Origin: Desulfosudis oleivorans Hxd3
Lineage (GTDB): Bacteria > Desulfobacterota > Desulfobacteria > Desulfobacterales > Desulfosudaceae
Reading direction: 5' to 3'
NCBI RefSeq assembly: GCF_000018405.1
Contig: NC_009943.1
Coordinates: 571,255 to 635,254, forward strand
Length of the DNA: 64,000 nt
The notes under the pieces are model-generated. The model ran no database searches. It had not been told where the DNA came from and worked only from the letters and a program-made list of their open reading frames with translations. Positions 4,502 through 59,839 of this stretch are shown here, piece by piece. Within the stretch, counting starts at the first letter, position 1. Each line of letters opens with the position of its first letter. Made by a program: the position numbers and the translations under genes.

Positions 4502-5333
4502 GGCCGGCCTGCTCGGTTGCCGCCTGCCGAATGGCCACCAGTGCGGTCAGCAGGGGCTCGACCTGTTCCAGGGGCAGGGAGTTGGGGCCGTCGCACAACG
4601 CCTTGTCCGGGTTCCGGTGGACCTCCAGGAAGATACCGTCCGCGCCGGCCGCCACCGCGGCCCTGGCCAGGCAGGGCACGAACTCCCGCTGGCCACCGGA
4701 GCAGGTGCCCTGTCCCCCGGGAAGCTGAACGCTGTGGGTGGCGTCAAAGATCACCGGTTTGCCGGTCTGCTGCTGCATGATGGGAATGGCCCGGAAATCG
4801 ACCACCAGGTTATTGTAGCCGAACATGGCGCCCCGCTCGGTGATCAGAATGTTCTCGTTGCCCGCGGTTCTGGCCTTTTCCACCACCTGGGTGATGTCCC
4901 AGGGCGCCAGGAACTGCCCCTTTTTTATATTGATGATTTTTCCCGTGGCCGCCACCGCGGTGATAAAGTCGGTCTGGCGGCAGAGAAAAGCCGGTGTCTG
5001 AATGATATCCAGAACCTGGGCCGCCGGGCCGATCTGTGATTCCGTGTGAACATCCGACAGCACCGGCACATGCAGCCGCTCTTTGACCCTTCTCAGAATG
5101 TCAAGCCCCAGGTCCGGGCCCGGTCCCCGGAAGGAGTGGACGGAACTGCGGTTGGCTTTGTCGTAGGATGCCTTGAATATAAAAGGAATCCCCAGCCTGT
5201 CGGTGACGGTTTTCAAAAACTCGGCGGCCTGCAGGGTGGTGTCATAATCCTCTATGACGCAGGGGCCGGCAATAACAACCAGGGGGGCGCCCCCGCCGAT
5301 GGAAATGTCGTTTAAAACAATGGTGTCGGTCAT
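4494..5333 (-). CDS. kdsA: 2-dehydro-3-deoxyphosphooctonate aldolase (KDO-8-P synthase)
   Basis: This 279-residue enzyme condenses phosphoenolpyruvate with arabinose-5-phosphate to give KDO-8-phosphate, the committed step to KDO. Signature segments are VIAGPCVIE near residue 20, FKASYDKANRSS near 53, DVHTESQ near 96, and DATHSVQLPGGQGTCSGGQ near 198, which all belong to the DAHP/KDO8P synthase I fold. It is the first visible gene of the kdsA-kdsC-lptCAB-rpoN run, and the strand switches just upstream, so the operon promoter probably lies in 5334-5560. Confidence 0.97.
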   Translation of the reverse strand: MTDTIVLNDISIGGGAPLVVIAGPCVIEDYDTTLQAAEFLKTVTDRLGIPFIFKASYDKANRSSVHSFRGPGPDLGLDILRRVKERLHVPVLSDVHTESQIGPAAQVLDIIQTPAFLCRQTDFITAVAATGKIINIKKGQFLAPWDITQVVEKARTAGNENILITERGAMFGYNNLVVDFRAIPIMQQQTGKPVIFDATHSVQLPGGQGTCSGGQREFVPCLARAAVAAGADGIFLEVHRNPDKALCDGPNSLPLEQVEPLLTALVAIRQAATEQAGHA

Positions 5334-5644
5334 GCGTTCTTTCCTGGAAACGGTTTTCGTGTCCTCATAACAGCTGGATGGACACTTCCTGGTGAACCCG
5401 TTGTTTGTCTATGGCCTTTTGTATCCCGGAGAGGTGCTAAAGTCAAGGTGTTCGCATGGGGCGCAGGGTGCCGGGAGGTAATGATCCTGGCGTGAAAAGA
5501 GGAGGGTGTCAGGACCGTCAATAGGATCGAAGTAAAAACGGGCTGAAGGATGTTGACTCTTGAATATAAAGGCATTCCCTGATATGGTTACTCAATTTTT
5601 AAACAGCCGGTCGTTTGGAACGGTTTCTTTTTGCAAGGAGGTGG
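5334..5644. other. Divergent intergenic region between kdsA and the M23 peptidase gene
   Basis: No convincing gene is seen in these 311 bases. It must hold the promoter for the kdsA operon (minus) and for the M23 gene (plus). On the plus strand TTGAAT at 5560-5565 and TATGGT at 5583-5588, 17 bases apart, form a weak sigma-70-like pair about 55 bases before the M23 start. No hairpin terminator is evident. Confidence 0.35.
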
Positions 5645-7009
5645 ATGGTGCGCAGCAAAAGCGACGGAAAATCAAGAGCATGGCCGATAATTCTGATGCT
5701 GATGCTGGCTGCCGGCGCCGTAGCCCTTCTGATCCTGTTTTTTCCCCGGCTGGAGGGGAAAGCCCCGGTTGTGGCATTTTCCGATTTTAATCCCGCCATT
5801 GGAACTTCTTCCTCCTTTACCGTCTCTGTCTCTGATGACAAAAGTGGCCTGCGCCATGTGTGGATGGCATTGCTGGTCGACGGCAGGGAGGTGGTGCTGG
5901 CCGACGAGTCGTATACCGCGCCCGTTTCGGAAAAAGACTTTAACCTGACCATCGAGCCGGGCGCCATGGACCTGCCCGACGGGCCGGCCCTGCTGCGGAT
6001 TTCGGTAACGGACAACGCTGCACGGAACTGGTTAAAGGGGAATCTCACCTACCTGGAGCAGGCCGTGACCATTGACACCCGAAAGCCGGACGTGTCGGTG
6101 ATCAGCCGGCAGCACTATGTGAACCAGGGCGGCGCCGGCCTTGTGGTTTACCGGGTGGCGGAACCGGGCACCACCCACGGGGTGCTGGTGGGGGACAACT
6201 TTTTCCCCGGCCACCAGGGAGTGTTTAGCGACAAAACACTCTGTCTGGCCCTTTTTGCCGTGGATCATCGCCAGGGCAAAGACACGCCGCTTCTGGTTTC
6301 TGCCACCGACGCGGCGGGCAACACGGCAAAAACCGGGTTTTACTACCTGATCAAGCCCAAAACGTTTCCCAAAGATGTGCTGACCATATCCGACACCTTT
6401 TTAAACCTGAAGATGCCCGAGTTTGATCTGCCTGAAGAGCCGGCGTCCCTGCTGGACAAGTTTGTGACCATCAACTCCGCGGAACGCAAAAGAAACGTGG
6501 AAAAGATCGTGTCCCTGTGCCGGACATCGGACAGCGCCCTTCACTGGAAGGGAGATTTTATCCGGCTGCCCAACGCGGCCCCCAGGGCCGGGTTTGCCGA
6601 TCAGCGGGAGTATGTCTACAACGGCAAAACGGTCAGCCATTCCGTCCACATGGGCATCGACCTGGCCTCACTGGCCAATGCCGAAGTGCCGGCGGCCAAT
6701 GCCGGCCGTGTGGTGTTTGCCGACTGGATCGGCATTTTCGGAAAAACCGTGGTGATCGATCACGGGTGCGGGCTGTTTTCCATGTATTCCCATCTTTCCA
6801 CCATGGATGTGACACCCGGGAAGATGGTGGAACGGGGCACGCCCATCGGCCGGACCGGCATGACCGGCATGGCGGCCGGTGATCATCTCCATTTCGGCAT
6901 GATGGTTCACGGCACGTTCGTCAATCCGCTGGAGTGGTGGGACGCGGCGTGGATCACCAACAACATTACCTCGAAAATAGAAGCTGTGGCGGACCTGCCG
7001 CGGCTGTAA
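5645..7009 (+). CDS. Membrane-anchored M23 family metallopeptidase
   Basis: LytM-type M23 proteins cleave peptidoglycan cross-bridges in the periplasm or act as activators of other hydrolases. One membrane segment (about residues 14-34, WPIILMLMLAAGAVALLILF) anchors the protein. A long middle part has Ig-like beta-strand patterns (SFTVSVSDDKSGLRHVW, LRISVTDNAARN). The M23 domain forms the last 120 residues, with zinc ligands in HMGIDLA and HLHFGM. The Shine-Dalgarno AAGGAGG at 5635-5641 favours ATG 5645 or GTG 5648 over the upstream ATG 5615. The specific substrate is unknown. Confidence 0.88.
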   Translation: MVRSKSDGKSRAWPIILMLMLAAGAVALLILFFPRLEGKAPVVAFSDFNPAIGTSSSFTVSVSDDKSGLRHVWMALLVDGREVVLADESYTAPVSEKDFNLTIEPGAMDLPDGPALLRISVTDNAARNWLKGNLTYLEQAVTIDTRKPDVSVISRQHYVNQGGAGLVVYRVAEPGTTHGVLVGDNFFPGHQGVFSDKTLCLALFAVDHRQGKDTPLLVSATDAAGNTAKTGFYYLIKPKTFPKDVLTISDTFLNLKMPEFDLPEEPASLLDKFVTINSAERKRNVEKIVSLCRTSDSALHWKGDFIRLPNAAPRAGFADQREYVYNGKTVSHSVHMGIDLASLANAEVPAANAGRVVFADWIGIFGKTVVIDHGCGLFSMYSHLSTMDVTPGKMVERGTPIGRTGMTGMAAGDHLHFGMMVHGTFVNPLEWWDAAWITNNITSKIEAVADLPRL

Positions 7010-51719: not shown

Positions 51720-52757
51720 TTACTCGACCCACTGAATGCGGGCCTGTTCCCTGGCCACCACGTTGTCGATCTGCATCTTGGGCCATCCCAGGGTCAGGGA
51801 GCTGATGATTTCAAACTGGTCGTCAATACCCAACTGCCTTCTGAAAGCCGGGTAGAACCCCAGCCCCCTTACCAGTGATACCCAGCAGGTGCCCAGGCCC
51901 AGGGCGTGGGCCGCCAGCACCATGTTCTGTCCGCAGATGCCGGTGTCCAGCTGAATGGAGCCGATGCCCCGCTTGTCGGCCAGCAGGATGATCAGCACCG
52001 GCGCGTTAAAAAAGATGTGGTAGTCCGGGTCACTGGTCACGGTATTGATGCCGCCCCGGGCACGGGGCTCCACGTCCCCGGTTTTGATCCGGCAGAGCAG
52101 GGCCATCACCATGTTCTGCCACCAGTTGAGCTTTGCGTTTGGATCGCCGGGCGTTTTTTTGTCCAGGTAGGCGTGGGGCATCATGATAAATGTCCCTTTG
52201 CGAAGGGACCGTTTGCACTTGTCATTGATCTCGTCAATGACCTGTTTGTTGGTGATGGCGATAAACTTCCAGGGCTGGTTGTTGCCCGCCGACGGCGCGA
52301 ACCGTCCCGCCTCGATCACCCTTTCTACCAGGTCCCGCTCCACCGGCTTTTTTTTGTAAAGCCGTATGCTTCGCCGCTTGTAGATCACCCGTTCGGTCTC
52401 GGTGAGCTGGCCTTCAATCTGCTCAAAGGGCTCGCCGGCGCGGCTGCGTATGGGTGCGGGAAGGGTTTTGCCGTTTTCAAACAGGTGGGTGTTTTTCCAG
52501 AAACCGGCGCCCACCCGGTAGTCTCCTTCAATGACAATGGCCTTGTTGGGGCAGGTGGCCACGCAGTTCTGGCAGGTGATGCACCGGAAATGGTCATAAC
52601 GCTGGTTTGGGGCCGCCTTGCCGTCGGCAACCATAAGGATCTGCATGGGGCAGGCGGCCACGCAGGCCCCGCACCCGTTACATTTCTCTTCATCTAAAAC
52701 AAACCGTGCAAAAGCGGCCTCCGGGTTGTTGGTCGATTGAAAAAATTTTTTGATCAT
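51720..52757 (-). CDS. Ferredoxin-nitroreductase fusion protein
   Basis: The 345-residue protein has two 4Fe-4S clusters at the start: CNGCGACVAACPM (about 21-33) and CITCQNCVATCPN (about 58-70). A nitroreductase domain follows from about 125 (ERVIYKRRSIRLYKKKPVERDLVERVIEAGRFAPSAGNNQPW), which binds FMN. The C-terminal motif GICGQNMVLAAHALGLGTCWVSLV is typical. Electrons would come from ferredoxin rather than NAD(P)H. Substrate unknown. It converges with the signalling module, six bases away. Confidence 0.88.
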   Translation of the reverse strand: MIKKFFQSTNNPEAAFARFVLDEEKCNGCGACVAACPMQILMVADGKAAPNQRYDHFRCITCQNCVATCPNKAIVIEGDYRVGAGFWKNTHLFENGKTLPAPIRSRAGEPFEQIEGQLTETERVIYKRRSIRLYKKKPVERDLVERVIEAGRFAPSAGNNQPWKFIAITNKQVIDEINDKCKRSLRKGTFIMMPHAYLDKKTPGDPNAKLNWWQNMVMALLCRIKTGDVEPRARGGINTVTSDPDYHIFFNAPVLIILLADKRGIGSIQLDTGICGQNMVLAAHALGLGTCWVSLVRGLGFYPAFRRQLGIDDQFEIISSLTLGWPKMQIDNVVAREQARIQWVE

Positions 52758-53035: not shown

Positions 53036-53166
53036 GAAAATGAATTGTGCGCCTTTCTTTCTCGTGGAATAATGCCTTATTTAATGAAGGCTATAAAATT
53101 TCAGGATTGACCCGGGTCGATAACAGGTGTATAGTTTGTGGTCAGAATCAGGGAGGATGTAAAAAA

Positions 53167-54060
53167 ATGGAAAACACGCAGCATCTGTTTCGCATCGGCG
53201 AGCTGGAACGACTGTCCGGCGTGGCCCGGCGCAACATTCATTTTTACATGCAGCAGGGCCTGCTCCATGCGCCCCACCGCACCGGACGGACCATGGCCTA
53301 TTATGACGCGTCCCACCTCAACAAGCTGGCCTATATTATTGAACAGAAAGCCCTGGGCCAGCCCCTTTTTTCCATTCGGGAAAACATCGAACGCTTGGAG
53401 GCCGAAAGCCCCGGCTGCTTTTCGGCCCGCCGGTCCACACCGGCCCGGAAGGCCGGCACCACCGATCGGCGAATGCCCCGCCGGGGCAAAAGCATGAAAA
53501 CCCGGGAGGCCATTCTTGACCTGGGCTCCGCCCTGTTCCGGCAAAAAGGGTACCGGGCCACCAGGGTCAGTGACATCACCACCCGGCTCAACATCGGCAA
53601 AGGCACGTTCTATTTTTATTTTTCCGACAAAAAAGAGCTGCTTTTAGCCTGCGTGCCCAGAATATTCGGCGAACTGTTTGCCAACGGGTGGGATGTCATA
53701 CGTCAGGAGGCCGACCCCCTCAAACGTCTGGAGTTGCGGGCCCGGGCCGTTCTGCCGGTGTTGGACGAGTTTTGCGCCATTCTGGCCATCTGCGAAGAGG
53801 CCCATGAAGACCCGGACCCCAAGCTCAAACAGATGGGCGAGCAAACCCTGGTAACGATCCGAAAGCCCATGGAATCGGATATTCGCAAGGGCATGGCCCA
53901 GGGCCTGATTCGAACGGTGGACCCGGCCATTGCCGCGGCCCTGATGATCGGGGCCATGCGCAGCATGCGGGTGTTGCGCTCCATGGACCCGGACATCTCC
54001 GATGACGCTGTTTTGCGCGAAGTGATCGGTGTGGTGCTTTCCGGTATTCGGCGACATTGA
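53167..54060 (+). CDS. MerR-TetR fusion transcriptional regulator
   Basis: The 297-residue regulator has an N-terminal MerR-type winged helix (LFRIGELERLSGVARRNIHFYMQQGLL, about residues 7-33, then TMAYYDASHLNKLAYI). A linker of about 30 basic residues leads to a full TetR DNA-binding domain (MKTREAILDLGSALFRQKGYRATRVSDITTRLNIGKGTFYFYFSDKKELL, about 113-162). A helical C-terminal ligand domain follows. Two different HTH domains in one chain are rare. ATG 53167, preceded by GGGAGG at 53150-53155, is preferred to an upstream frame. It faces the thiolase-CoA ligase operon and is likely to control it. Confidence 0.85.
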   Translation: MENTQHLFRIGELERLSGVARRNIHFYMQQGLLHAPHRTGRTMAYYDASHLNKLAYIIEQKALGQPLFSIRENIERLEAESPGCFSARRSTPARKAGTTDRRMPRRGKSMKTREAILDLGSALFRQKGYRATRVSDITTRLNIGKGTFYFYFSDKKELLLACVPRIFGELFANGWDVIRQEADPLKRLELRARAVLPVLDEFCAILAICEEAHEDPDPKLKQMGEQTLVTIRKPMESDIRKGMAQGLIRTVDPAIAAALMIGAMRSMRVLRSMDPDISDDAVLREVIGVVLSGIRRH

Positions 54061-54209: not shown

Positions 54210-54397
54210 CCAAAACAGATTTTTTACGAGAGCATCAACATTAACCGGCGTGCTATAACTATACACTCACTTTACATATAATTGACCACGGTTCCTTAAA
54301 ATAAAGGATTTGAATAAATTTTCTTGACTCAACCGTCCAAACCGGGATAGCCTTTTCCCACATCAGTGATCGTCAATATAGAAAAGGAGTGGCAGCA

Positions 54398-55621
54398 ATG
54401 CGTGATGTGGCAATTATCGGAGCGGGCATGACCCGGTTCGGCAAGTTTCCGGAAAAGAGCATCAAGGACCTGGTCAAAGAATCGAGCCAGGCCGCGATAA
54501 AGGATGCCGGCATTCAGCCGTCAGACATTCAGGCCGCCTACGTGGGCAGCGCCGTGGCCGGCCTGATGACCGGCCAGGAAATGATCAAGGCCCAGGTCAC
54601 CCTGTCGGCCATGGGCATTGAGGCGATTCCCATGTACAACGTGGAAAACGCCTGCGCCTCCTCTTCCAGCGCCCTGAACCTGGCATGGACAGCGGTGGGG
54701 GCCGGCATTTTTGACTGCGTGCTGGTGACAGGTTTTGAAAAGCTTTATGACGAGGACAAGAAAAAGTCCTTTGCCGCCCTGGGCACGGCCGTGGACATTG
54801 AGCTGTTCAAGCTGTTTCTGGCCGAGTTCCAGAAAAACCAGGGCAAGGGTGAATCGATCATAAAAGAGGGCAGCGGCCAGAAGCGCAGCGTGTTCATGGA
54901 CATGTACGCCCACTACACCAAGATATATATGGACCGCTACGGCCTGACCCAGGAGCACTTTGCCAGGATCGCGGTCAAAAGTCACAAGAACGGTGCCCTC
55001 AATCCCCATTCCCAGTACCAGGAAGAGGTCACCCTGGAGCAGGTGCTGAACTCCGGTGATGTGTCCTGGCCGTTGACCCGAATGATGTGCTCACCCATCG
55101 GCGACGGCGCCGCCGCCGTTATCGTCTGTTCAAAAGAGGCCGCGGCCCGGTTTGGGGCCCGGCCGGTCTGGATCGCTTCCAGCGTGGTGGGCAGCGGCAA
55201 GCTTTCCGGTGACCTGGAAGACACCCTGACCAAACGGCTGGCGCCCAAAGCCTTTGAGGCCGCCGGCATCGGGCCGGACGATATCGACGTGATCGAGGTG
55301 CACGACGCCACCTCACCGTCTGAAATCATCACTCTCATTGAGCTGGGGTTGTGCCCCGGCGCGGACGCGCCCAAGTGGATTGACGAGGGCTACATGGAGA
55401 TCGACGGCTCCCGTCCGTCCAACACTTCGGGCGGGCTGGCGGCCAAGGGCCACCCCATCGGCGCCACCGGCCTGGGCCAGGTTTATGAAATCGTCAACCA
55501 GCTGCGGGGCACCGCCGGCAAACGCCAGGTGAAAAATCCGAAAGTGGGCATGACCCACAACGGCGGCGGCATTCTCGGCGTGGACGCCGCCGCCATGGCC
55601 CTGCACGTGTTTAAAAATTAA
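54398..55621 (+). CDS. Thiolase family protein (SCP-x-like acetyl-CoA acetyltransferase)
   Basis: The 407-residue thiolase has the nucleophilic cysteine in ENACASSSSALN (about residue 86), the histidine in GGLAAKGHPIGATG (about 347) and the glycine loop in THNGGG (about 385). The spacing and the sequence AIIGAGMTRFGKF fit the SCP2/SCP-x thiolase group, which acts on lipids or CoA esters that classical thiolases do not. ATG 54398 follows AAAAGGAG. It is the first gene of the operon with a PaaK-like ligase and two Fe-S proteins. Substrate unknown. Confidence 0.87.
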   Translation: MRDVAIIGAGMTRFGKFPEKSIKDLVKESSQAAIKDAGIQPSDIQAAYVGSAVAGLMTGQEMIKAQVTLSAMGIEAIPMYNVENACASSSSALNLAWTAVGAGIFDCVLVTGFEKLYDEDKKKSFAALGTAVDIELFKLFLAEFQKNQGKGESIIKEGSGQKRSVFMDMYAHYTKIYMDRYGLTQEHFARIAVKSHKNGALNPHSQYQEEVTLEQVLNSGDVSWPLTRMMCSPIGDGAAAVIVCSKEAAARFGARPVWIASSVVGSGKLSGDLEDTLTKRLAPKAFEAAGIGPDDIDVIEVHDATSPSEIITLIELGLCPGADAPKWIDEGYMEIDGSRPSNTSGGLAAKGHPIGATGLGQVYEIVNQLRGTAGKRQVKNPKVGMTHNGGGILGVDAAAMALHVFKN

Positions 55622-55658: not shown

Positions 55659-57026
55659 ATGGACAACAATCAGCCCTACTGGAACATGGAGATCGAACCC
55701 AGGCTCAACACGGAAGAGATGCGCGAGCTTCAGTGGAAAAAGCTGGTGCCGGCCCTTCAGTGGCAGTATGAAAACACGCCCATGCACCGCAGCCGGTTTG
55801 AAAAGGCCGGCATCACGCCCGCCGACATTCGCAGTTTTGACGATTTTGCCCAGGCCTTGCCGCCCATGGGCCAGGCGGAGATTCGGGATCTGATCGGCGA
55901 AATCGGCCTGGACATGGACAAGCTCATGGGCCACCTGTTCGGTGAAAAGCGCATGAACGATCTCTATCTGCTCACCACCACCTCCGGCACCACCGGCATT
56001 CCCACGCCCTATCCCAATTTCGGGGCCTCCCTGGACGACGCCGCCGAAATTATGGCCCGGGCCGCCTGGCGCATCGGCATTCGGCCCGGTGACCGCGTCG
56101 GCATCTGCTTCGGGCTCTCCATGCATGCCGCAGGAACGCCCCAGGTGCTGTGGTTCCGCAAGTTTCCGGGCATCACCCTGGTTCCCATCGGCGCCGAGGC
56201 CGGCACGGAAAAGATTCTCCAGTTTATGCAGCTGTTCAAGGTCAACGTGTTTCTGGGCACGCCTTCACTGGCCCTTCATCTCATCGAGCGGGCCCCGGAA
56301 GTGCTCATGGGCCAGACCGTGAAATCCCTGGGCATCAAGGTGCTGATGCTGGGGGCCGAAGCCGGTGCCGGCATTCCCGAGGTGCGCGCCAAGCTGGAGG
56401 AGGCTTACGGCGCAAAGGTGTTTGACCTGGGCGGCGGCTACGGCTGCTCCTGCGATCACCCGGTCTACCAGGGCATGCACTGGATTGCCGACGATTATGC
56501 CTACTACGAACTCATCGACCCGGAAACCCGCCAGCCCGTACCCATGGAAAACGGCGCCACCGGCATCATGGTGGGCACCTCCTTAAACCCGCCGGCCGCG
56601 GTCTGGTTTGACCTGCGGTTTACCATGATGGACATTCACCAGGTGTTTACCGACCCCTGCCCTTGCGGCCGGTCCGGTTTCAGGTATAAGATCGTGGGAC
56701 GGGCCGACGACATGCTCAAGGTCAAGGGAGTGCCGGTCTACCCGGCGGCCATTGAGGGGGTGATCCATTCCTTTCCCGACAAGCTCACCGGCTCCTTCCG
56801 CATCGTGCTCGACGAACCGCCCCCCCGGGTGGTGCCCCCGCTTAAACTTAAAATTGAATACGCCGAAGGGGTCAGAAAAGAAGACCTGCCCGGCATTGAG
56901 GCCGACCTGACAAGCCGGATGCATTCGCTTTTGAAAATCCGGCCGGCCATCCAATGGCTGGCGCCCAATACCCTGGAGCGGGCCACAAAGAAAACCCAGC
57001 TCCTGGAAAAGGCTTACGAGGAATAG
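55659..57026 (+). CDS. PaaK-like AMP-forming CoA ligase
   Basis: The 455-residue adenylate-forming enzyme resembles phenylacetate-CoA ligase. The phosphate loop TTTSGTTGIPTPYP is near residue 107. A cysteine pair CSCDHP (about 265) and a CPCGRSGFRYKIVGRADDMLKVKG segment match the metal-site and A8 region of PaaK. The family activates aromatic or related carboxylic acids to CoA thioesters. It follows the thiolase by 37 bases. The substrate cannot be named. A fatty- or aromatic-acid degradation role is inferred from the operon. Confidence 0.85.
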   Translation: MDNNQPYWNMEIEPRLNTEEMRELQWKKLVPALQWQYENTPMHRSRFEKAGITPADIRSFDDFAQALPPMGQAEIRDLIGEIGLDMDKLMGHLFGEKRMNDLYLLTTTSGTTGIPTPYPNFGASLDDAAEIMARAAWRIGIRPGDRVGICFGLSMHAAGTPQVLWFRKFPGITLVPIGAEAGTEKILQFMQLFKVNVFLGTPSLALHLIERAPEVLMGQTVKSLGIKVLMLGAEAGAGIPEVRAKLEEAYGAKVFDLGGGYGCSCDHPVYQGMHWIADDYAYYELIDPETRQPVPMENGATGIMVGTSLNPPAAVWFDLRFTMMDIHQVFTDPCPCGRSGFRYKIVGRADDMLKVKGVPVYPAAIEGVIHSFPDKLTGSFRIVLDEPPPRVVPPLKLKIEYAEGVRKEDLPGIEADLTSRMHSLLKIRPAIQWLAPNTLERATKKTQLLEKAYEE

Positions 57027-57067
57027 GGTGAGCCGTCATTCCGGATAAAATTGATCAATACCTTGTC

Positions 57068-57097
57068 ATCGGTATCGGTAGCGGTATCGGCATCGAG
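57068..57097. repeat. ATCGGT-type hexamer repeat
   Basis: ATCGGT, ATCGGT, AGCGGT, ATCGGC and ATCGAG follow one another in the 144-base gap between the CoA ligase and the epimerase fusion. The run is related to that at 38591-38614. It interrupts an otherwise tight operon. Confidence 0.65.
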
Positions 57098-57170
57098 AAC
57101 CCTTGCCGCATCGATCCCGATTTGGACCGGCCGGGAAAAAATTCATAAACCTTCAACCAGGAGGTAGACC

Positions 57171-58940
57171 ATGGGCACCACCGTTGCCATCACCGGCGTT
57201 AACAGCTACTTTGCATCCACTATCCTGCCGCTGCTGGAAACCGATCCTGACGTGGATAAAGTCATCGGCATTGACGTGTCACCCTGGAAAGGGGGATATG
57301 GCAAGGTTGAGTTCCACCGGGCCGATATTCGGGACCCCCAGATCGCCGACATCCTGGCCGGGGCCGACGTGGTGTATCACCTGGCCTTTATCGTGGGCCA
57401 GATTCAGGACACTCAAAAAGCCCTGGACATTAACATCAACGGCAGTCGCAACGTGTTTGAGTCCTGCGTGAAGAACAACGTGTCCAAGGTGATCTACACC
57501 AGCTCCTCCACGGTCTATGGCGCCCATGCGGATAATCCCATCGGTTTTCGCGAAGACGCCCCTCTGCGCGTCAACGAGGACAGCTACTACAACGAAAGCA
57601 AGGTCAAGGTCGAAACCTTTGCCCGGGATTTTTTCCGCAACCATCCCGATATCACGTTTACGGTCATTCGGTCGGCCCTGCTGTTCGGCCCTCACATCGA
57701 CAACATGTTTTCAAAGCTTTACGACCTGCCGGTGTCGTCCCTTCCCATGGGCCGCACCACCCACAACCAGTACATTCACGAAGAAGACCTGGGCAGCGCC
57801 CTTCACATGGCCATGGCCTGCGACCTGCCCGGCATCTACAACGTGGGGGCCGACGACGGCATGGCTACCCGGCACGCCTTTGCCATGGCCGGGGTCCGCA
57901 TCATTCCGGTGCCCACAAGCCTGCTCAAGCTGGTGGCGGCCGTTGGGTTCAAGCTGCGCCTGTTTTCGGCCGGCCGCGGCTGGGTCAGCCTGGGCGAATA
58001 CACCATCTTCATGAATTGCGACAAGTTCAAGCAGGCCACCGGGTGGAAACCCCGGTACACCTCCCGCCAGACCTTTGAGTCCTTTCTGGCGGCCCGCGAG
58101 CGTGACGCCAAAGACAACCCCATTCAGGCCACCCTGTCCTGGATATTCAAAAGCGGCCCCCGCACCCGGCCCACCATGGCGGTGCTCAACGTGTTCCGGC
58201 TGGGAAAGGTACCCGGTCTTCGGCGGGCCATTCCCTGGATGAACCCCAAAAAGAACAGCATGAGCTACCTGCCGGTCAACCGCAGCCTGGGCCAGGTGGT
58301 GGACCAGGTGCTGCCCGCCCAGGTGGTGCACGATTTTATCGACGCCGCCGACACCTATGTCATCATGGACAAGTGTGGCTGCCGGCTGGCCCGAAAGTGC
58401 CAGCACCACACCCCGGACATCGGGTGCCTGTTCATGGGAGAAACCGCCCTGAAAATGCCCCACGGTGTCAGCCGCCGGGTCACCCGCGAACAGGCCCACG
58501 CCCACGTGGACCGGGCCATCAGCGTCGGCCTGATTCCCATGACCGGCAAGGTGCGGGTGGATAACTTCATCTTTCTTACCCCGGACCGCAGCAAGCTGCT
58601 GTCTGTCTGTTTCTGCTGCCACTGCTGCTGCATGATGACCTCGCTCAAGCACATTCCCGGTGACTACCTGGACGGCATCATGCCGCGCATCGAAGGCCTG
58701 GAAATCTCTGTCACCGACGCCTGCGTGGGCTGCGGCACCTGCGTGGAGTTCTGCGGGTTCGGCGCCATCACCATTGAAAACGGCAAAGCGGTGCACAACG
58801 ACCAGTGCCGGGGCTGCGGCCGCTGCGAAACCCGGTGCCCCAACCACGCGGTCAGAATCACCATCAACAACCCCAACGTCACCGAGGATGTGAAAAAACG
58901 GATCGAACAGTACGTGGACTTCAAGGGAACAGCGGCCTGA
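57171..58940 (+). CDS. NAD-dependent epimerase fused to an iron-sulfur domain
   Basis: The 589-residue protein has two parts. Residues 1-310 are an extended SDR: GVNSYFASTILPLLE replaces the usual GxxGxxG, VIYTSSSTVYGAH gives the serine region, and SYYNESKVKVE gives the YxxxK. The second part (about 365-589) has MDKCGCRLARKCQHH, then the motif CFCCHCCC near 482, then two 4Fe-4S sites CVGCGTCVEFC (about 518) and CRGCGRCETRC (about 546). The same layout is found alone in the next protein. The fusion suggests a redox-linked step on a CoA or sugar-like substrate. Start ATG 57171 follows AGGAGG. Confidence 0.82.
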   Translation: MGTTVAITGVNSYFASTILPLLETDPDVDKVIGIDVSPWKGGYGKVEFHRADIRDPQIADILAGADVVYHLAFIVGQIQDTQKALDININGSRNVFESCVKNNVSKVIYTSSSTVYGAHADNPIGFREDAPLRVNEDSYYNESKVKVETFARDFFRNHPDITFTVIRSALLFGPHIDNMFSKLYDLPVSSLPMGRTTHNQYIHEEDLGSALHMAMACDLPGIYNVGADDGMATRHAFAMAGVRIIPVPTSLLKLVAAVGFKLRLFSAGRGWVSLGEYTIFMNCDKFKQATGWKPRYTSRQTFESFLAARERDAKDNPIQATLSWIFKSGPRTRPTMAVLNVFRLGKVPGLRRAIPWMNPKKNSMSYLPVNRSLGQVVDQVLPAQVVHDFIDAADTYVIMDKCGCRLARKCQHHTPDIGCLFMGETALKMPHGVSRRVTREQAHAHVDRAISVGLIPMTGKVRVDNFIFLTPDRSKLLSVCFCCHCCCMMTSLKHIPGDYLDGIMPRIEGLEISVTDACVGCGTCVEFCGFGAITIENGKAVHNDQCRGCGRCETRCPNHAVRITINNPNVTEDVKKRIEQYVDFKGTAA

Positions 58941-58942
58941 AA

Positions 58943-59839
58943 ATGAAAGAATCCACTAAGCGTATAATAAGGTATCACGGCCTGCGGCCGGACCGGGCCT
59001 TTCACAACTGGCTCTATTTTGCCCACTACAGAATTTACGTTAAAACCATGCTGGCCGCCGCCCGGTTTCTGCAGAAGCACTTCGGCGGCATGTGGCTGCT
59101 CAGCCGCCCTTTCAAGTCGGTTTTCGAGCGCTACCACTCCAAGGTAATGACCGAGGCTGATGTGAGAAAAATTCTCACCTTGAACCGGGAGCTGGACCTG
59201 GGCCCCCACAAGCAGGTCATCCCCTATGCCTATGCCAACAAGATCATTTTTGACGAGCCGGACTTTATCGTGGTGATGGACTGCCCCTGCCGGCTGCACC
59301 GCGAGCACCACTGCGAGCCGGTTACCGTGTGCATGGCCGTAGGTCGCTACTATGGTCAACTCTGGCTGGAGCACTCCCAGAAGTTTCATCCCCGCAAAAT
59401 CACCCAGGAAGAGGCCCTGGAGCTGGTCCGGTCCCAGCGCGAAAAAGGGTGCATCACCACGGCCTGGGTCAAGGTGGGCACCGGCGGCCGCACCGGCATC
59501 ATCTGCAACTGCTGCACCTGCTGCTGCGGCGGGCTGGAAGGCATGCGCATGGTGAAAGCCATCAAGGGCGGAGAAAACGTTTCCAACGTGGCGCCCTCCG
59601 GCTACAAGGTGGACCACGACCCGGCCCTGTGCACCGCCTGCGGCACCTGCATCTCGGGCTGCATGTTCGACGCCATCACCGCCGATGAAAACGGCGCGCC
59701 TGTCTACAACCGGGACGCCTGCATGGGCTGCGGCCTCTGCGTGGAACACTGTCCCCGGCAGGCCCGCTCCCTGAACAAAGAGTTTGCCGAGGGCCTGTTC
59801 CCCCTGGACCTCGACATGCTCCAGGAAAAAAAGCAGTAA
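58943..59839 (+). CDS. Iron-sulfur protein with CxCCxCCC motif
   Basis: The 298-residue protein is a paralogue of the second half of the upstream fusion. It has VVMDCPCRLHREHHCEPVTVC (about 108-128), the cysteine cluster CNCCTCCCGG (about 188) and two 4Fe-4S motifs CTACGTCISGC (about 230) and CMGCGLCVEHC (about 261). The N-terminal 95 residues (HNWLYFAHYRIYVKTMLAAARFL) are helical without an epimerase domain. The start is ATG 58943, two bases after the upstream stop. It likely moves electrons for the fusion enzyme. No named family is recognised. Confidence 0.75.
   Translation: MKESTKRIIRYHGLRPDRAFHNWLYFAHYRIYVKTMLAAARFLQKHFGGMWLLSRPFKSVFERYHSKVMTEADVRKILTLNRELDLGPHKQVIPYAYANKIIFDEPDFIVVMDCPCRLHREHHCEPVTVCMAVGRYYGQLWLEHSQKFHPRKITQEEALELVRSQREKGCITTAWVKVGTGGRTGIICNCCTCCCGGLEGMRMVKAIKGGENVSNVAPSGYKVDHDPALCTACGTCISGCMFDAITADENGAPVYNRDACMGCGLCVEHCPRQARSLNKEFAEGLFPLDLDMLQEKKQ

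Follow-up and report, generated by a model that had tools for sequence, protein, structure and literature searches.

The 64,000-nucleotide window considered here (Desulfosudis oleivorans Hxd3, NC_009943.1, positions 571,255 to 635,254 of a genome that forms a single contig of 3,944,167 bp) carries two adjacent forward-strand genes, P0001 and P0002, whose products share a cysteine-rich iron-sulfur (Fe-S) module that in P0001 is fused to an extended short-chain dehydrogenase/reductase (SDR) domain. A first-pass annotation made from the sequence alone had singled out the two proteins, and both open reading frames (ORFs) indeed lie where it had placed them (Table 1). The observation stands and is wider in scope than two neighboring proteins: the module marks a large and widespread nine-cysteine Fe-S family that is apparently undescribed.

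In P0001, the extended SDR domain is followed by a helical linker and the cysteine-rich module; P0002, which starts 2 bp past the P0001 stop, is a stand-alone version of the same module. An AGGAGG ribosome-binding site is located upstream of P0001. The module common to both proteins comprises a core of about 115 residues of the form CxC..C..C plus CxCCxxCC, with the nine cysteines at C114, C116, C124, C130, C188, C190, C191, C194 and C195 in P0002 numbering, and then a 2[4Fe-4S] ferredoxin. The two CxxCxxCxxxC sites claimed for each protein are present at residues 518-528 and 546-556 of P0001 and 230-240 and 260-270 of P0002, and are matched by the Fer4 profile. The supposedly shared MDxCxCRL segment is only approximate since P0002 reads MDCPCRL. 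The N-terminus of P0002 is rich in aromatic residues and predicted to be helical, in a low-confidence part of the structure model.

Table 1. Features of the P0001-P0002 locus, in window coordinates
Feature	Coordinates	Strand	Evidence
P0001, extended SDR fused to nine-Cys Fe-S module, 589 aa	57171..58940	+	ORF list, Pfam, structure model
P0001 extended SDR domain, residues 1-320	57171..58130	+	Pfam, fold match, alignment
P0001 nine-Cys core, first half: C402xC404, C410, C419	58374..58427	+	alignments
P0001 CFCCHCCC motif, residues 480-487	58608..58631	+	motif positions, orthologue alignment
P0001 2[4Fe-4S] ferredoxin part, Cys 518-556	58722..58838	+	Pfam, motif positions
P0002, stand-alone family member, 298 aa	58943..59839	+	ORF list, Pfam, structure model
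P0002 nine-Cys core, first half: C114xC116, C124, C130	59282..59332	+	alignments
P0002 CNCCTCCC motif, residues 188-195	59504..59527	+	motif positions, alignment
P0002 2[4Fe-4S] ferredoxin part, Cys 230-270	59630..59752	+	Pfam, fold search
PaaK-like AMP-forming CoA ligase	55659..57026	+	Pfam, NCBIfam, locus comparison
SCP2/archaeal-type thiolase homologue	54389..55621	+	Pfam, alignment, locus comparison
Regulator with MerR and TetR domains in one protein	53047..54060	+	Pfam, locus comparison
2[4Fe-4S]-nitroreductase	51720..52757	-	locus comparison

Conservation of the Nine-Cysteine Core

The nine core cysteines are invariant in all 14 copies encoded in the same genome and in 10 of 10 P0001 orthologues, and each of the 39 regions fetched from the top of the match list of a core hidden Markov model (HMM) contains CxCCxxCC with a CxC before it and Fer4 after it; close homologues thus retain the motif, as the first-pass annotation had required. 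All nine are likewise found in every row of a 22-row alignment whose rows were preselected by CxCCxxCC. The motif had originally been read as CxCCxCCC, and CFCCHCCC and CNCCTCCC do occur in P0001 and P0002, but the sixth letter is not fixed, five of the 14 own-genome copies carrying D or K there, so that the conserved form is CxCCxxCC. Among 128 unique sequences selected by the latter motif, CxCCxCCC is the commonest form (102), the sixth letter being D, K or E in the other 26. Distant relatives break CxCCxxCC and retain six cysteines.

To describe this variation we number the cysteines C1 to C9, C3 being the lone cysteine after CxC and C7 the fourth letter of CxCCxxCC. An HMM search across all fetched loci found 218 cores, of which 216 are unique and complete; the set is enriched for close relatives and chosen matches. 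C1, C2 and C5 are cysteine in all 216, C4 and C6 in 215, and C8 and/or C9 in all 216. C3 and C7 are both cysteine in 187 cores, both missing in 24 and discordant in 5. The variable sixth letter is cysteine in 160 and otherwise mostly D (37), with K, G, E, N, W and R also found; in all 13 cores in which C8 is not cysteine while C3 and C7 are, this letter is cysteine. These patterns hint at an added site formed by C3 and C7 with either C8 or the variable letter, beside an older six-cysteine site. On the tree, four independent pairs on supported branches bear on the joint behavior of C3 and C7 (2.8 the same way, 0 opposite, 1.2 with no difference), and because there are just four, the joint loss is a hint only. 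The number and conservation of the core cysteines argue for one or more metal sites beyond the two ferredoxin clusters, which agrees with one half of the original suggestion; as for the other half, the center may be an unusual one, and the redox-linked conversion of a CoA ester or lipid suggested at first is likewise a possibility.

By eye, aromatic-rich N-terminal stretches are found in P0002, its closest copy and L018. The latter (4940-5941) is a diverged own-genome copy with the motif CACCTDCC, an apparent C-terminal membrane helix and an adjoining MarR-like gene, again by eye. Selenocysteine was considered and rejected: the single TGA in three P0001 orthologues corresponds to the C-terminal end where shorter proteins stop, and no in-frame selenocysteine codon is present.

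Lack of Reliable Matches to the Core in Domain and Structure Libraries

Pfam and NCBIfam scans of P0001 and P0002 recognized the SDR domain and the ferredoxin repeats and gave only chance-level matches over the core, in keeping with the first-pass remark that this region could be assigned to no named family. When the 14 own-genome cores were compared with NCBIfam, three families matched one member each (best 0.007), which we take as chance. A PDB profile search of the core returned only four pentatricopeptide-repeat chains with no individually significant stretch, which we take as a one-helix artifact, and PHROGs contained no match for P0002 at E 0.01. In the best 60 of 124 PDB sequence matches of P0002, the ferredoxin part is aligned and no best stretch begins before residue 188. 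Foldseek and VIA-align searches with the whole P0002 model matched essentially the ferredoxin part, a result that does not show the fold of the core to be new; the rows that extended into the core, namely FwdF chains (Z 4.2-5.0, 5-7 A) and the FliM middle domain (Z 3.9), were too weak to use. The P0002 model has a predicted local distance difference test (pLDDT) score of 72 and a predicted template modeling (pTM) score of 0.66, with ten-residue means of 69-95 across approximately residues 91-280. In a literature search by motif, family, architecture and organism, which covered few subscription papers, none of the listed titles and abstract openings indicated this family.

Distribution and Descent

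Searched against the D. oleivorans genome, P0002 has 30 matches; 14 of these, P0001 and P0002 among them, span the core, and the other 16 begin at query residue 168 or later. The core-only HMM returned the same count, 14. At E 1e-10 this HMM detected the family in 97 of the 198 genomes sampled from the phylum, with at least 23 matches in each of four genomes (G001, G157, G186 and G221), and a wider HMM at E 1e-8 detected it in 51 of 199 genomes of a clostridial phylum, picked via the match-bearing genome of L091 (titled uncultured Oscillospiraceae). All nine genomes behind match-bearing loci were positive, including those titled Lokiarchaeota, Clostridiales, Actinomycetota and Thermoproteota. 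P0001 itself is rarer: at E 1e-60 it was detected in 12 of the 147 genomes of its class, and nine of those 12 have the full-length fusion. When named genomes were scanned with P0001 orthologues, 50 loci were obtained.

In a tree of 128 unique modules (a short, quick search with only Shimodaira-Hasegawa-like approximate likelihood-ratio support, in which some long branches are flagged as meeting), P0001 belongs to a branch of 43 rows, mostly of the CFCC type, that mixes modules fused to an SDR with free ones. P0002 lies on a separate branch, which it shares with the copy at 3.76 Mb in its own genome and with CNCCPKCC proteins encoded in the same operon elsewhere. Tandem duplication is rejected on the strength of these different branches, and the two genes were therefore brought together rather than duplicated in place: the pair described at first is one by operon only, not by descent. 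Further family members, drawn from different branches, lie nearby in 6 of 22 named SDR-bearing loci (L048, L053, L060, L062, L064 and L076). At L060 (9879-15892), a P0001-type locus has three more family members nearby, of reduced and full types. L068 (6522-8795), titled Spirochaetes, has a free P0001-type module adjoining a longer family member; mis-binning of this metagenome-assembled genome (MAG) is possible.

The SDR Domain and Its Gene Cluster

The attachment of the module to an extended SDR domain was borne out. Residues 5-226 of P0001 match Pfam PF01370 Epimerase (E 1.1e-24, 87.7 bits against a gathering score of 20.9), and a fold search with the P0001 model (mean pLDDT 86.6, pTM 0.81) matched the N-terminal part to the extended-SDR fold of the UDP-galactose 4-epimerase type. 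A single PDB sequence, 6dnt (8.8e-11), matches the SDR part at E <=1e-10. Among 21 SDR sequences, S111 and K144 are kept in all, Y140 in 20 and D35 in 18; we take S111, Y140 and K144 to be the catalytic Ser, Tyr and Lys of SDRs, and infer from Asp35 that the domain is of the nicotinamide adenine dinucleotide (NAD) type. The glycine motif reads TGxNSYFA against the usual TGxxGxxG, the second Gly being replaced by S in 20 of 21 sequences and the third by A in all 21.

The cluster of nitroreductase, regulator, thiolase-like protein, coenzyme A (CoA) ligase and SDR-FeS fusion recurs in Desulfobacterota. We compared 22 SDR-bearing loci, several of them from close relatives and hence not all independent, of which 17 have room for neighbors (a left flank of >3 kb or a right flank of >4.5 kb beside the SDR part). 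Orthologues of the thiolase-like gene, 70-76% identical, are present in 15 of these 17, those of the MerR-TetR regulator in 12, of the nitroreductase in 11 and of the PaaK-like ligase in 10, so that the thiolase and CoA ligase context noted at first is both real and recurrent. In L053 and L062 the nitroreductase lies on the ligase strand, directly downstream of the ligase. The SDR and the module are separate adjacent genes in 4 of the 22 loci (L058, L061, L065 and L070), against the fused form seen in P0001, which constitutes gene-fusion evidence for their joint action. Short GGTATCGG-type repeats occupy positions 57060-57110 of the window, in the gap between the ligase gene and P0001.

The neighbor first described as a thiolase is indeed a thiolase homologue, but it lacks Cys at both HDCF and CxG, which we take to be the usual second-Cys positions of thiolases. 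The Cys nucleophile and the GHP His are kept in all 18 sequences compared; the HDCF Cys is replaced in all 18 (HDAT or HDTT), and the CxG position holds H in 16 and Q in 2, at variance with a two-Cys SCP2-type thiolase. Ordinary thiolase chemistry is therefore not to be assumed, and to judge from these residues the protein may catalyze acyl transfer or a condensation in place of ordinary thiolysis.

Other Partners of the Family

Outside the P0001 group, eight clostridial ORFs of approximately 760-950 residues have the core and Fer4 ahead of a flavoprotein. Two of the eight were scanned and match Fer4_20 and Pyr_redox_2, along with GltD/Nfn-type models, and one of them also matches Nfn-type PDB chains. 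Neither C7 nor C8 is present in the core of 5 of these 8 ORFs, and the other 3 have A, G or S at C8. In L158 an AMP-dependent CoA ligase and the full module are encoded in one ORF, possibly two genes merged by stop loss in one assembly. L171 (1811-9422, a MAG titled Spirochaetes) has a run of four P0002-type genes, and near-identical GMC oxidoreductase genes follow two of these; one GMC oxidoreductase gene was profile-scanned, and the TetR-like genes in between were recognized by eye. The long ORFs of L115 and L135, considered as further fusions, appear by eye to be upstream read-through.

Proposed Function and Alternatives

The function best supported by these sequence comparisons is that of a partner-specific electron relay with one or more further metal clusters in the core, P0001 joining an SDR that acts on a CoA-activated substrate to ferredoxin-type carriers; we put the chances of this reading at about even (roughly 0.5). 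The ferredoxin part would exchange electrons with a soluble low-potential pool or with a sister protein, and the core, holding at least one further metal cluster, would face the partner enzyme, which in P0001 is the covalently attached extended SDR. At this locus, the PaaK-like ligase, to judge from its family, would produce an acyl-CoA, on which the thiolase-like protein, with its Cys nucleophile and His and no second Cys, could carry out acyl transfer or condensation. The SDR, with its conserved Ser, Tyr and Lys, would then oxidize or reduce an oxygen function, and the core and ferredoxin of P0001, together with P0002 and the flavin mononucleotide (FMN)-type 4Fe-4S-nitroreductase, might carry the electrons for a second redox reaction of this substrate, which may be hydrophobic.

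Several observations weigh against this proposal. Hydride-to-cluster transfer inside P0001 is chemically not obvious, SDRs being flavin-free, so that a separate flavin step would be needed, and the nitroreductase is only a guess for it. The cluster is not universal: none of the four neighbors is present in L056 and L074 (the room in L074 being one-sided only), and the ligase is missing at some loci or swapped for another AMP-binding enzyme, as in L060 and L063, where a different one stands behind the thiolase-like gene. Once relatedness on the tree is taken into account, the joint loss of C3 and C7 does not reach significance (median p 0.25), and the P0002 model is weaker than that of P0001, residues 53-86 scoring below 50. 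Finally, among 121 genes beside 33 generic members, no Pfam family occurs in more than 3, with up to 4 of 121 in controls; those reaching up to 3 genes include short-chain dehydrogenase, nitronate monooxygenase, response regulator, MaoC and FAS1 dehydratase. This comparison uses the first 25 of 160 and 159 families in the neighbor and control tallies, respectively, and 33 of the 39 fetched regions (in the other six a greedy gene caller dropped the module ORF though the motif was present); the controls, 121 of 128 genes from 20 stretches of six genomes, are not genome-matched, and the cases are best-scoring matches. Given that the neighbors of generic members are not enriched, the relay idea rests on the fusions and a few loci.

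The boldest reading is that of a catalytic core: an Fe-S site of open-coordination, noncubane or multi-cubane type would itself reduce or oxidize the substrate that the ligase, the thiolase-like protein and the SDR have prepared, and the 2[4Fe-4S] part would do no more than feed it. Nine cysteines exceed the need of two cubanes; C8 and/or the sixth letter is Cys wherever C3 and C7 are (187 of 216 cores), which would fit a cluster held by three Cys whose fourth ligand can be exchanged, and the alternation of the sixth letter between Cys (102 of 128) and D, K or E (26 of 128) points the same way. We nonetheless regard a catalytic core as doubtful: known catalytic Fe-S families were unmatched in the Pfam and PDB profile searches, many own-genome copies have, by eye, no obvious adjoining partner enzyme, and the neighbors of generic members are not enriched for any family. 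Rather unlikely in turn is its fullest version, in which the core would be a new Fe-S enzyme site with two separable centers, an ancestral six-Cys one and an added three-Cys one with an exchangeable ligand, multiplied to >20 copies per genome in anaerobes and plugged onto NAD, flavin adenine dinucleotide and CoA enzymes for low-potential chemistry on CoA esters or lipids.

That the family consists chiefly of redox or metal sensors, the common form regulating genes via a winged-helix-like N-terminus and P0001 and P0002 being derived members that kept the core, appears improbable. An N-terminal region of approximately 100 residues does precede the core in 10 of the 14 own-genome copies, and the L016 and L018 copies adjoin genes that by eye resemble TetR and MarR regulators, but the helix-turn-helix matches in this region are few and weak (TrmB in 2 of 14, best 0.0051; NirDL-like in 1 of 14, 0.0011). 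Moreover, a region that looks similar by eye is present in the clostridial flavoprotein ORFs, where DNA binding seems unlikely and the scanned ORFs gave no helix-turn-helix match, whereas P0001 and P0002 themselves lack a winged-helix-like N-terminal region. Less probable still, and indeed very unlikely, is a core that binds another metal, such as Zn or Cu, for structure or storage and has no redox activity. Cysteine motifs of comparable density are also known from metal-binding proteins; however, the members aligned here carry a ferredoxin part behind the core, the known fusion partners are mostly redox enzymes, and the named hosts are, by genome titles, mostly anaerobes.

Whichever role the core plays, a family found in about half of the sampled genomes of a phylum has neither a domain model nor a reliable structural relative in the libraries searched. 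Should the core hold an unusual cluster, it would represent a new cofactor site for anaerobic biochemistry; even as a mere relay, it could account for the wiring of anaerobic dehydrogenases and CoA pathways, including those of an alkane-degrading sulfate reducer. Desulfococcus oleovorans (CP000859) is described as a sulfate reducer that oxidizes alkanes and palmitate (PMC2253699). The fusion of an SDR with the module in a conserved gene cluster makes P0001 a good candidate in the search for new redox chemistry.

Comparison with Known Systems

The gene cluster resembles the OleA/OleC/OleD head-to-head hydrocarbon pathway, which has the same superfamily mix of a thiolase fold, an AMP-forming enzyme and an SDR. 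However, the P0001 SDR matches the OleD models NF042423 and NF042422 only weakly (48.4 and 33.8 bits against a cut-off of 580), and, as compared to OleA and OleC, the thiolase here is SCP2-like and the ligase PaaK-like. HdrB and the double-cubane-cluster proteins resemble the core at most in the idea of an odd cysteine spacing that could hold a non-standard cluster, and differ in the cysteine pattern; the HdrB CCG-domain and double-cubane families are not among the 18 Pfam families matched by the 14 own-genome members at E 0.01. With the clostridial-type 2[4Fe-4S] ferredoxins (PF00037, Fer4), P0001 and P0002 share the two CxxCxxCxxxC sites and the profile match, a likeness confined to the last 60-70 or so residues, the nine-cysteine core lying outside that family.

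A link to the NfnB/GltD-type flavoproteins of electron-bifurcating enzymes exists in the clostridial relatives, in which one ORF has the core and one Fer4 ahead of such a flavoprotein; in contrast, P0001 carries an SDR and lacks a flavin domain, and the core is down to about six cysteines in 5 of those 8 ORFs. Finally, P0001 is like the extended SDRs (PF01370) in its Epimerase match, its fold and its Ser, Tyr and Lys, and differs from them by the TGxNSYFA motif and by the C-terminal Fe-S module.

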